DNA of 45,727 bases, taken from contig CALMXF010000002.1 in NCBI GenBank assembly GCA_937870985.1, positions 1 to 45,727 of the forward strand, in the 5' to 3' direction. Origin of the DNA: an uncultured Chloroflexota bacterium (GTDB taxonomy: Bacteria > Chloroflexota > Chloroflexia > Thermomicrobiales > CFX8). Positions 27,158 to 31,083 of this stretch are shown here, in pieces. The position numbers and the translations under genes are program-made. The notes under the pieces are model-generated. The model was not told the DNA's origin. It worked only from the letters and a program-made list of their open reading frames with translations, and did no database searches. Every line of letters starts with the position of its first letter. Within the stretch, counting starts at the first letter, position 1.

Positions 27158-27814
27158 TTACTGTTCGGCTTCCCACTCGCGGAACAGTCGTTCGGCTAAT
27201 CGATTGCTCAACTGGATTGCGATGTAGATCGGTTGATAGACTGCCGCGGCGATGTCATGGGGTGTAAGGTGACCGACCGCTGCAGCCTTTCGACGGTGCC
27301 GGGTGGCCCCGTCGAATTGTTCGATTGCCGCGACAATCCAGTCAATCTCGTCGTCACGAAGCCGATTCCGGTGCGTGCTCACAAGCAGCGCCAGTTGTTC
27401 TGAGATCGAGCCGGCCACCGATTCAAAGTCCGCGAGCCTCGTGATATCGGTCGCGGAAAAGAGCGGATCGATCCGTGCCTTCCAGCGATTGCGTTGCAGG
27501 AGCCGTGTGGCAAATCGGACGTCATGGCCGCCGCTTTCGGCGATCGCGCTTCCGAAGCCGTAGCGGAGTGGCAATTTATCGGCGGCACGCGCAACCCAGT
27601 TGTTCTGCCATTCCGTCTTCATCTGCGCTGCGGCCTGGTAGAGGGTGGCTAGCACGCCGAACAGATCGGCGAACGCGTCGTCGTGAGTGGGCTTCGGCTT
27701 CGACCGGCGAAATGCTAGTGACGAGGTCAGCATGACTACCGGGATGTATCCGAGCGCAATCGTCAGCGAGAGTGATGCGACGCGCTGTCGTACATGACCG
27801 TTGGGATGGTTCAA
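27158..27814 (-). CDS. Hypothetical protein, predicted mostly helical
   Basis: Up to 218 residues; I do not recognise a family. The N-terminal stretch has a hydrophobic segment ('VASLSLTIALGYIPVVMLTSSLAF') if the TTG start at 27814 is used; that TTG overlaps the stop of the selenoprotein gene (TTGA), which would couple the two. ATG 27733 is an alternative that skips this segment and begins 'MLTSSLAFRRSK'. Neither has a strong ribosome site. The rest looks like a soluble helical bundle with many Arg, Ala and Gln residues ('ADLFGVLATLYQAAAQMKTEWQNNW', 'DDEIDWIVAAIEQFDGATRHRRKAA'). Confidence 0.6.
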   Translation of the reverse strand: MNHPNGHVRQRVASLSLTIALGYIPVVMLTSSLAFRRSKPKPTHDDAFADLFGVLATLYQAAAQMKTEWQNNWVARAADKLPLRYGFGSAIAESGGHDVRFATRLLQRNRWKARIDPLFSATDITRLADFESVAGSISEQLALLVSTHRNRLRDDEIDWIVAAIEQFDGATRHRRKAAAVGHLTPHDIAAAVYQPIYIAIQLSNRLAERLFREWEAEQ

Positions 27815-28308
27815 GATCGATCCGATCCACTAGGTATGCCAGAAATTGACTCGGCCGCGAGGAGCAGCAACGCCGTCGAGGGACGATCGCCCGCGTTTCG
27901 GCTGAGGTAACGATAGCGAACCTGTCCGCCCTCGTCGATGGCGAACATCGCAGGCAGCGCCGCGAGGTGCTCATGTTCGCCTGGGTCGTACCGACTGATT
28001 GCGCGGATCCAGCGAGCTTCGGGATCGCGAAAGAGCTCGATCGGGGGACGAGTCATCTCTGCCATCGATCGACAGCCTGCCTCGCTATCCGCGCTGATCG
28101 CGATGATGCGCGCCCGAAATAGACGGAGTGTGTCGGCAACAGTGGACAGCTCGCCGAGCTGTCTCCGGCAGTGAGCTCACCAGTGACCACGATAGACCAG
28201 AATCAGCGCCGGACCACCGCGGATCGTGATCGACTCGCCGTCGCAAGTCTCGAGAACAAGGGGCAACATCCGCAGCTCGGTCTCGGGTGTGGTGGGAGAA
28301 TCGATCAT
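27811..28308 (-). CDS. Selenoprotein: AhpC/TSA (peroxiredoxin-like) thioredoxin-fold protein with UxxC active site
   Basis: 165 residues if the in-frame TGA at 28179-28177 is read as selenocysteine (U44). Before it: 'GGPALILVYRGHW'; after it: 'AHCRRQLGELSTVADTLRLF', then 'ARIIAISADSEAG', 'PPIELFRDPEARWIRAISRY', 'ALPAMFAIDEGGQVRYRYLSR'. Together these follow the AhpC/TSA pattern 'LvFYRGhWCPyCrrQL.eL...AISaD...fplLsDp...P.vFviD..G.vr'. The TGA falls exactly at the peroxidatic or first redox Cys, giving U44-A-H-C47. A SECIS-like hairpin follows. ATG 28308 lies just after the RNase H gene. Without recoding only an 84-aa fragment from 28065 would be called. A simple nonsense mutation of a CPHC-type gene is the alternative. 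Confidence 0.78.
28145..28163 (-). promoter_or_regulatory. Bacterial SECIS-like hairpin downstream of the in-frame UGA
   Basis: GACAGCTC (28163-28156) and GAGCTGTC (28152-28145) form a perfect 8-bp stem with loop GGC. The stem starts 13 nt, and the loop 21 nt, after the UGA; the loop begins with G. This fits the described bacterial SECIS geometry (loop roughly 16-37 nt from UGA, G in its first two bases). Confidence 0.7.
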
Positions 28309-28311
28309 GCG

Positions 28312-28761
28312 TCAGTGACCGAGGCGGCGAACTGATTCGGCGCGCGGATGCCACGACAGCTCCCATGACCCAAAGCGGCTGAGGAGCAAGCGCGTCTCGG
28401 CATGAAGAGGTCTCAACCCCTCGCTCTTCACCTTCCAGCGGCCAGACACCTGCTCAACGACGAGCTTCGAGTCGCTATAGACGCGAATCATTATGGCATT
28501 CAACCGATGCCCGTCGGCCTCGGCGCGAGCGGCAATCTGCCGCAACCCTTCGATCAATGTCATGTACTCGGCTTCGTTGTTGGTTCGCCGGCCGGAGAAT
28601 TCCAGCCTGACGGGTTGAGGCGTCTCGATGAGTCCCTGGACGATAAACGAGCCATATCCCTTTCCGGGATTGCCAAGAGATCCACCGTCGAATACGAGTG
28701 TGATGTTGGCGTCGAGCAACTGCCGCTGATTACTGGCGGGGCTACGCGAACCGGCGGTCAT
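28312..28761 (-). CDS. Ribonuclease H family protein, short C-terminus
   Basis: 149 residues. RNase HI-like fold: 'ITLVFDGGSLGNPGKGYGSFIV' (first catalytic Asp), 'RRTNNEAEYMTLIEGL' (Glu), 'IMIRVYSDSKLVVEQVSGRWKV' (second Asp). It cleaves RNA in RNA-DNA hybrids. The usual ending 'PRexNxxADxLAxxA' appears only as 'HPRAESVRRLGH' then TGA, so the fourth carboxylate is missing and the tail is about 15 residues short. ATG 28761 follows AAAGG at 7-nt spacing. Between the EF-G-like gene and the selenoprotein gene. Confidence 0.85.
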   Translation of the reverse strand: MTAGSRSPASNQRQLLDANITLVFDGGSLGNPGKGYGSFIVQGLIETPQPVRLEFSGRRTNNEAEYMTLIEGLRQIAARAEADGHRLNAIMIRVYSDSKLVVEQVSGRWKVKSEGLRPLHAETRLLLSRFGSWELSWHPRAESVRRLGH

Positions 28762-28844: not shown

Positions 28845-30914
28845 CTACCCGTCGTGTCGAGTCTTGTGGGCAGCGACGATTGACGACGTGAGGTGCGCTG
28901 GGACCTGTTGATAGTGATCGAAGGTAACCCGGAACGTTCCGCGGCCCTGGGTAATCGATCGCAGATCGGTCGCATATCGCTGAATCTCGGCAGCCGGGAT
29001 ATCCGCGACGATCGTGGTCGTGCCATCATCGCCGGGGTTCATGCCGGTGACATGACCGCGCTTGGTCGTCAGGTCGCTCATGACATCCCCGGTGTATCCC
29101 TCGGGCACGGTAACCTCGAGCTTCATGACCGGCTCGAGGATGACAGGATTCGCCGACTGCGCTGCCTTCTTGAATGCCTGCGAGGCGGCGAGCTTGAACG
29201 CCATCTCGGAGGAGTCGACCGCGTGGTACGAGCCATCGGTAAGCGTTACCTTGATGTTGACGACCGGGAACCCTGCGAGAATGCCTTCACCGAGCGCTTC
29301 TCGAATGCCCTTCTCGACGGCGGGGATGTATTGTCGGGGGACAGACCCACCAAAGATCGTCTCGTCGAACTCGAAGTCACCCTCGCTCGGCGCCATGTCG
29401 ATGAAGACGTGCCCATACTGCCCGTGACCGCCGGTTTGCTTCTTGTGCTTGTATTCAATGTGGGTGACCGCGCGCTGGATTGTCTCCCGATAGGGGACGG
29501 TCGGCAACCCGATTTCGACGTTCACGCCGAACTTGCGCGCCATGCGCTCCAGCGCGATCTGGACGTGACTCTCGCCCAGGCCACTGACCAGTGTCTCTCC
29601 AGTCTGGGGGTCTCGTCCGAGCTTCAGGGTCGGATCTTCCTCGACCAGTCGCTGGAGCGATGACCCCATCTTGTCGAGGTCCGACTTCGACCGTGGTGAC
29701 ACGGCCGCCGTGAACAGGGGCGCGGGAAACTGGATGCCCGCCAGAACCACCTTCCGCGACGCATCACACAGCGAGTCACCGGTGCTGGTCTCAGCCAGCT
29801 TCGCCACCGCGCCGATATCGCCCGCCCCAACTTCCGGGACGGCAATCTGTTCCTTGCCGCGGATGAGATACAGCTGGCCGATGCGCTCGTCGCGATTACG
29901 GGTGGTGTTCCAGAGATGCGAGTCGGACTTGAGCGTGCCAGCGTAGACACGGAAGTACGTCAGCCGGCCGACGAATGGATCGGCCATGGTCTTCCAGACC
30001 AACGCTGCCGCCGGTTCGCCAACAGAGGCGGCGAGCGAGACCTCGTCGCCGTTGGCGATTCGGGCGGTCGTTGGCCCCGGCGGGCTGGCGAAATCGACGA
30101 TTGCGTCGAGGATGCTGTTGATGCCTCTGTTGGCAGTCGCGGCAGAAGCAAGGACAGGAACGATCTCCCCACGGCGCACCGATGCGCGCAGCGCAGCGGC
30201 AAGCTCGTCTGGAGTCAGCTCGTCGTCCTCGAGGTATCGGAGCATCAGCTCTTCGTCGTTTTCTGCGATCTTTTCGACCAGCGCGAGCCGGTAGGTCTCG
30301 ACCGCGTCGAGCATATCGGCCGGGATTTCACCTTCGGTTGTCGCGCCGCTCTTGTCGTCGGCGAACAGCTCCGCGCGCATGTGCAGGAGATCGACGATGC
30401 CTCGGAAGGTTGATTGGCTGCCGATCGGGATAGAGAGTGGAACGACGTTATTCCCCAGGAGTGATTGTGCCGACTGCAGGGCGGCCCCGAAGTCGGCATT
30501 CTCTCGATCCATCTTGTTGATCGCGACAATGCAGGGCAGGTTCCGCTCTCGGGCGAAGCGCCAGGCATACTCGGTGCCGACCTCAACGCCGGCCGAGGCA
30601 TCCAGAAGCACGAGGGCGGTGTCGACCACTCGCATAGCTGCTTTGACTTCGCCAAGGAAGTCCGCGTAGCCGGGCGCGTCAAGCAGGTTGATCTTGCAGT
30701 CGTTCCACTCCAGCGGGGCGATGCTGTCCCCGATAGAGATTGCGCGCTTGATCTCGTCGGGATCCCAGTCGGAAACGGTGTTGCCCTCTTCGATTCGGCC
30801 AAGCCGATTGATGGTTTTGCTGGAGTACAGCATGGCTTCGACCATTGACGTCTTACCAGCGCCACCATGTGAGAAGAGACCGATGTTTCTGATGCGTTCG
30901 ACGGGGTACGTCAT
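28845..30914 (-). CDS. Elongation factor G-like protein (FusA2 type)
   Basis: 689 residues, full EF-G domain order: GTPase (G1 'HGGAGKTSM', residues 16-24; G3 'DAPGYADF', 79-86; G4 'NKMD'), domain II, domain III ('GLGESHVQIALERM'), domain IV ('YRETIQRAVTHIEYKHKKQTGGHGQYGHV') and V ('LEVTVPEGYTGDVMSDLTTKRGHVTGM'). The G3 His of canonical EF-G (DTPGH), which activates the hydrolytic water, is Tyr83, and the switch I 'RGITI' reads 'RAISIG'. This matches the EF-G-like FusA2 group, whose function is uncertain, so it is probably not the main translocase. ATG 30914 follows GGGAGGT at 8-nt spacing; the longer frame upstream is non-homologous. Confidence 0.88.
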   Translation of the reverse strand: MTYPVERIRNIGLFSHGGAGKTSMVEAMLYSSKTINRLGRIEEGNTVSDWDPDEIKRAISIGDSIAPLEWNDCKINLLDAPGYADFLGEVKAAMRVVDTALVLLDASAGVEVGTEYAWRFARERNLPCIVAINKMDRENADFGAALQSAQSLLGNNVVPLSIPIGSQSTFRGIVDLLHMRAELFADDKSGATTEGEIPADMLDAVETYRLALVEKIAENDEELMLRYLEDDELTPDELAAALRASVRRGEIVPVLASAATANRGINSILDAIVDFASPPGPTTARIANGDEVSLAASVGEPAAALVWKTMADPFVGRLTYFRVYAGTLKSDSHLWNTTRNRDERIGQLYLIRGKEQIAVPEVGAGDIGAVAKLAETSTGDSLCDASRKVVLAGIQFPAPLFTAAVSPRSKSDLDKMGSSLQRLVEEDPTLKLGRDPQTGETLVSGLGESHVQIALERMARKFGVNVEIGLPTVPYRETIQRAVTHIEYKHKKQTGGHGQYGHVFIDMAPSEGDFEFDETIFGGSVPRQYIPAVEKGIREALGEGILAGFPVVNIKVTLTDGSYHAVDSSEMAFKLAASQAFKKAAQSANPVILEPVMKLEVTVPEGYTGDVMSDLTTKRGHVTGMNPGDDGTTTIVADIPAAEIQRYATDLRSITQGRGTFRVTFDHYQQVPAHLTSSIVAAHKTRHDG

Positions 30915-31083
30915 CACAATCCACCTCCCGAACGTAGCCGCAAGCCCTGTGGAGACCGCCGCGTCCGGAGACCACCCCTGTTGATGCTGACCAGGGGCCG
31001 CGACGGAGGCTCGCGCCTGGATCTGTTGTGGTCGCCCCGGTATCTCCGGGGACCGCCGGCAACCGTGCGTATCGGGTGCAGGG

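Follow-up and report, generated by a model that had tools for sequence, protein, structure and literature searches.

An interrupted frame within a conserved gene order

The window, i.e., the complete stretch of 45,727 nucleotides analysed here, contains on its minus strand a reading frame that extends from an ATG at 28308 to a TGA at 27813-27811 and includes exactly one internal TGA, at codon 44. Apart from this triplet the frame is intact across 165 codons. The residues around codon 44 read MIDSPTTPETELRMLPLVLETCDGESITIRGGPALILVYRGHW-U-AHCRRQLGELS (...LVYRGHW-U-AHCRRQL...), where U denotes the selenocysteine (Sec) that we propose for this position. The features of the locus are as follows:

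27158..27814, minus strand: downstream gene for a 218-aa protein, with the same neighbour in genomes G001 and G003
27811..28308, minus strand: gene for a predicted peroxiredoxin (Prx)-like UxxC selenoprotein of 165 aa with Sec at residue 44, based on the frame, Pfam, orthologues and an AlphaFold model
28145..28163, minus strand: predicted bacterial SECIS hairpin GACAGCUC-GGC-GAGCUGUC, with 8 bp and a 3-nt loop
28168..28170, minus strand: Cys47 (TGC), the putative UxxC partner cysteine, invariant in the family
28177..28179, minus strand: in-frame TGA, probably read as selenocysteine (U44), with TGC or TGA at the aligned codon in orthologues
28312..28761, minus strand: upstream RNase H-like gene (PF13456), 3 nt before the ATG of the selenoprotein gene, with the same neighbour in G001 and G003
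28845-30929: EF-G-like gene, upstream of the RNase H-like gene

Here and below, G000 is the genome to which the window belongs, G001 is a genome of the same genus, and G002, G003 and G004 represent other genera of the same family.

Re-reading of the frame bears out the original prediction, which had described a continuous frame from 28308 to 27811 with a lone internal TGA at 28179-28177. The prediction had also held that homology continues in the same frame on either side of this triplet, and indeed the Pfam family AhpC-TSA (PF00578) matches the read-through protein with 50.7 bits (cut-off 26, E 2e-13) over residues 28-132, crossing codon 44, and orthologues align on both sides. A gene caller would list only the 84-aa open reading frame at 28065..27811, and this fragment, likewise foreseen, is present in the mechanical list of open reading frames. 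The RNase H-like and EF-G-like genes that had been ascribed to the locus were both found, and the order EF-G-like gene, RNase H-like gene, Prx-like gene, gene for a protein of 211-222 aa and thrS is common to the window, G001 and G003. By ThrS, the nearest named record is a Chloroflexi MAG (OHK40, 64%), and the phylum is thus probably Chloroflexota. The 218-aa protein encoded at 27158..27814 has no match in Pfam. The TTG start of its gene overlaps the stop codon of the selenoprotein gene, and this overlap suggests translational coupling.

Codon 44 in orthologues and the hairpin behind it

Homologues were retrieved from 74 of the 150 related genomes searched, many of them with exactly one internal TGA, and they share 24-46% identity with the window protein. 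A search for related loci among the genome contigs, with the protein as query, yielded none. In 39 sequences, including the gene in the window, the codon aligned with U44 could be scored; it is TGA in 29 and TGC or TGT in the remaining 10. Within the syntenic trio, the codon is TGA in the window, TGC in G001 (L010/L084) and again TGA in G003 (L011/L085). The proteins from G001 and G003 are 46% and 37% identical to that of the window, with conservation on both sides of the codon; for the G001 orthologue, amino acid identity is 38% upstream and 49% downstream of the TGA. Position 44, occupied by either U or C, and C47 are invariant in an alignment of 22 sequences. The comparison with orthologues across U44 that had been proposed as a check thus returned cysteine or UGA and not decayed sequence. 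An in-frame TGA also marks members of the Prx-like family in many of the relatives searched at the levels of order and class. Two further UGA-containing Prx-like groups also occur in relatives, with the motifs RGDWUPYCNGQL and RGxxUP[YH]CRxHL (e.g., L026, L028 and L030; L022, L037 and L038). Their hairpins have AGUU loops and lie at two different fixed distances from the UGA, 16 and 25 nt.

Bacterial SECIS elements have been described by a loop of 3-9 nt, a stem of 4-16 bp, a distance of 16-37 nt from the UGA, an energy of at most -7.5 kcal/mol and G within the first two nucleotides of the loop, mostly as GG or GU (PMC13188914). The hairpin in the window, with -11.3 kcal/mol and a loop that starts 21 nt past the UGA, satisfies all of these constraints. 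Taken alone such a pass is weak evidence, because under the version of the rules used here 7.5% of the window's 1358 TGA triplets qualify as well. A hairpin as strong as that behind U44 follows only 1.9% of these triplets, and a null model of synonymous codons gave P = 0.025. The whole 56-nt stretch after the UGA folds no better than shuffled sequences (z 0.07); of the downstream folds only the local hairpin is informative, and the 56-nt fold is not. An Rfam search of the locus returned chance matches only.

The comparison of UGA and Cys genes across homologues is stronger evidence than the window hairpin by itself. The mean best hairpin energy is -10.1 kcal/mol for the 29 UGA genes versus -1.4 kcal/mol for the 10 Cys genes, and hairpins of -6 kcal/mol or lower are present in 24/29 of the former versus 0/10 of the latter. 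The one-sided Mann-Whitney test yields P = 3e-5, a value that overstates the independence of the sequences because they are related. In G003 the hairpin CCAGCUC-GUU-GGGCUGG occupies the same place as that of the window. Loops of the AGUU, GGUU or GUU type prevail in most other UGA homologues, and the GGC loop of the window, a point against the Sec reading, differs in this respect from the GUU or AGUU of most relatives.

Active site and family assignment

The AlphaFold model has a mean pLDDT of 88.6 and adopts the Prx/ResA fold; its best matches in the PDB are peroxiredoxins of the Bcp4/PrxQ type and ResA. When aligned to PrxQ from Aeropyrum (2cx3), C47 falls on the peroxidatic cysteine and U44 on the serine of the T/S-x-x-C motif. 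The active site pattern of true peroxiredoxins, P-x3-T/S-x2-C, is not present, as the protein reads RGHWUAHC with U44 at the Thr/Ser position. Judged from these alignments, Sec appears to replace the N-terminal cysteine of a thioredoxin-like CxxC motif, and it is C47, not U44, that aligns with the peroxidatic cysteine. The original prediction had placed the UGA at the catalytic cysteine within UxxC. The replacement of a redox cysteine and the UxxC motif stand, whereas the equation of U44 with the peroxidatic cysteine does not. Because U44 sits at the N-terminal position of CxxC and C47 on the peroxidatic cysteine, the protein is better labelled a 'peroxiredoxin-like thiol:disulfide oxidoreductase' than a peroxiredoxin whose catalytic cysteine is replaced by U.

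That Prx-like UxxC selenoproteins are an established class, as had been stated at the outset, agrees with the literature. The 'Prx-like protein' from the Sargasso Sea is a selenoprotein of this kind (PMC1088965), and Prx-like thiol:disulfide oxidoreductases (PF00578, UxxC) are included in Table 1 of PMC13188914. The window protein shares with them the AhpC/TSA fold, a UxxC motif in place of the TxxC/TxxU of peroxiredoxins, the existence of Cys homologues and a bacterial SECIS element, here a predicted one, just 3' of the UGA (PMC1088965; PMC13188914). It deviates from the usual members in having Ala instead of Pro after Sec (RGHWUAHC). The window gene very probably joins this known family as a hitherto unannotated member. 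Sec-containing peroxiredoxins (PF00578, TxxU) belong to the same fold superfamily, but their Sec is the peroxidatic residue, whereas that of the window protein would lie three residues earlier, at the Thr/Ser position of peroxiredoxins. The SelL-related redox protein family (NF040769) has the same Prx-like architecture and is the best NCBIfam match, yet with 44 bits versus a cut-off of 120 the window protein is not a member. The ResA/TlpA thiol-disulfide oxidoreductases are a close structural match to the model and may resemble the protein in their CxxC chemistry; they differ in that no signal or anchor segment was noted when the window protein was read by eye, and the sequence match is weak.

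Selenocysteine machinery and competing explanations

The G000 assembly (2.83 Mb, 447 contigs, 89% complete) encodes selA (526.3 bits), selB (338.6 bits) and selD (354.1 bits), all above curated cut-offs. Its selD (G000:C257:55-990, L047/L052) has an in-frame TGA of its own within a UAAK motif (GUAAK), in agreement with the published table of selenoproteins, which gives UxxK as the motif of Sec-containing selenophosphate synthetase (PMC13188914); judging by this motif, selD is a selenoprotein gene itself. A selA gene and a UGA-containing selD were also found in G001, G002, G003 and G004. A search of the genome for the sel genes, which had been suggested as a check, therefore yielded selA, selB and selD. 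The exception is selC, which did not turn up in the assembly and is the main gap in the case for Sec.

A tRNA-Sec above the Rfam cut-off is present in 102 of the 150 relatives, among them G002, G003 and G004 with nearly identical canonical genes. Neither G000 nor G001 (96% complete) gave a tRNA-Sec with the Rfam model, with a covariance model derived from the genes of 17 relatives or in pattern searches for the anticodon arm plus T-arm, and blastn with the stretch around selC of G004 matched only the selC genes of G002 and G003. The tRNA-Sec candidates in G000 that were checked, with ARAGORN among other means, all proved to be ordinary tRNAs for Ser, Leu, Gly, Trp, Lys, Arg or Glu, and the truncated tRNA with which the selA contig ends did not resemble tRNA-Sec when inspected by eye. 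Because selC is surrounded by different open reading frames in G002 and in G004, synteny pointed to no place in which to look for it. One genus, represented by G000 and G001, thus combines selA and a UGA-containing selD with no detectable tRNA-Sec, next to three sister genera with near-identical canonical selC. Since G000 and G001 both keep the UGA in selD, we attribute the gap to sequence missing from the assemblies or to a tRNA that has diverged, and not to a loss of Sec decoding. The more specific idea that the genus decodes UGA as Sec with a tRNA-Sec too diverged for Rfam, the lineage-specific covariance model and the motif searches is in our view improbable.

Could the internal TGA have another origin? 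An assembly or sequencing error that hides a genuine TGC or TGT, or a fresh nonsense mutation in a recent pseudogene, might be suspected in a draft fragmented into 447 contigs, the more so as the orthologue from the same genus has TGC. Such an event does not explain the recurrence of TGA at exactly this codon in the syntenic G003 gene and 27 further homologues; moreover, SECIS-like hairpins go with the UGA genes only, the genome contains selA, selB and a UGA-containing selD, and the frame is otherwise undamaged over its 165 codons. We consider this explanation very unlikely. Equally small is the chance that an organism without tRNA-Sec reads the UGA as another residue, be it Trp or, via tRNA-Cys or a suppressor tRNA, Cys. 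The failure to find selC in the assemblies of G000 and G001 would fit, but UGA serves as an ordinary stop here, terminating both the selenoprotein gene and its RNase H-like neighbour, and the exchange is specific to the codon of a redox cysteine. Furthermore, selA and the UGA-containing selD are kept, in G001 as well, selB is present in G000, and canonical selC genes occur in G002, G003 and G004.

The existence of the mechanical open reading frame 28065..27811 could also be taken to mean that the UGA is a true stop separating two genes, one for a 43-aa peptide and one for an 84-aa downstream protein. However, Pfam and AlphaFold describe a single domain, and the stretch between the TGA and the start of that open reading frame, including the invariant C47, is conserved in relatives, so that hardly any weight can be given to this view. 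With high confidence we conclude that the product of the gene is a Prx-like thiol:disulfide oxidoreductase whose UGA44 would be decoded as selenocysteine.

The frame, the homology on either side of the TGA, the Cys/Sec exchange between syntenic orthologues, the SECIS-like hairpin and the genes selA, selB and selD are observed; Sec insertion, the substrate and the presence of selC are matters that we infer. For the decoding of UGA as Sec we follow the known bacterial pathway. SelA would convert Ser-tRNA-Sec with the help of selenophosphate supplied by SelD, SelB would bind the hairpin just 3' of the UGA and bring Sec-tRNA-Sec, and ribosomes would then read through UGA44 to the stop at 27811. 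In the resulting UxxC protein of the thioredoxin/peroxiredoxin fold, the selenolate of U44 would likely attack a disulfide or a peroxide, and C47 would resolve U44 via a selenenylsulfide.

The understanding of selenocysteine insertion as such is unchanged by these findings, and the selC puzzle in the genus of G000 and G001 is a small, testable point. What is gained is a corrected annotation at a place where standard gene calling would lose the active site of a redox enzyme, and an additional conserved locus, in a lineage that is probably Chloroflexota, at which Sec and Cys are exchanged.
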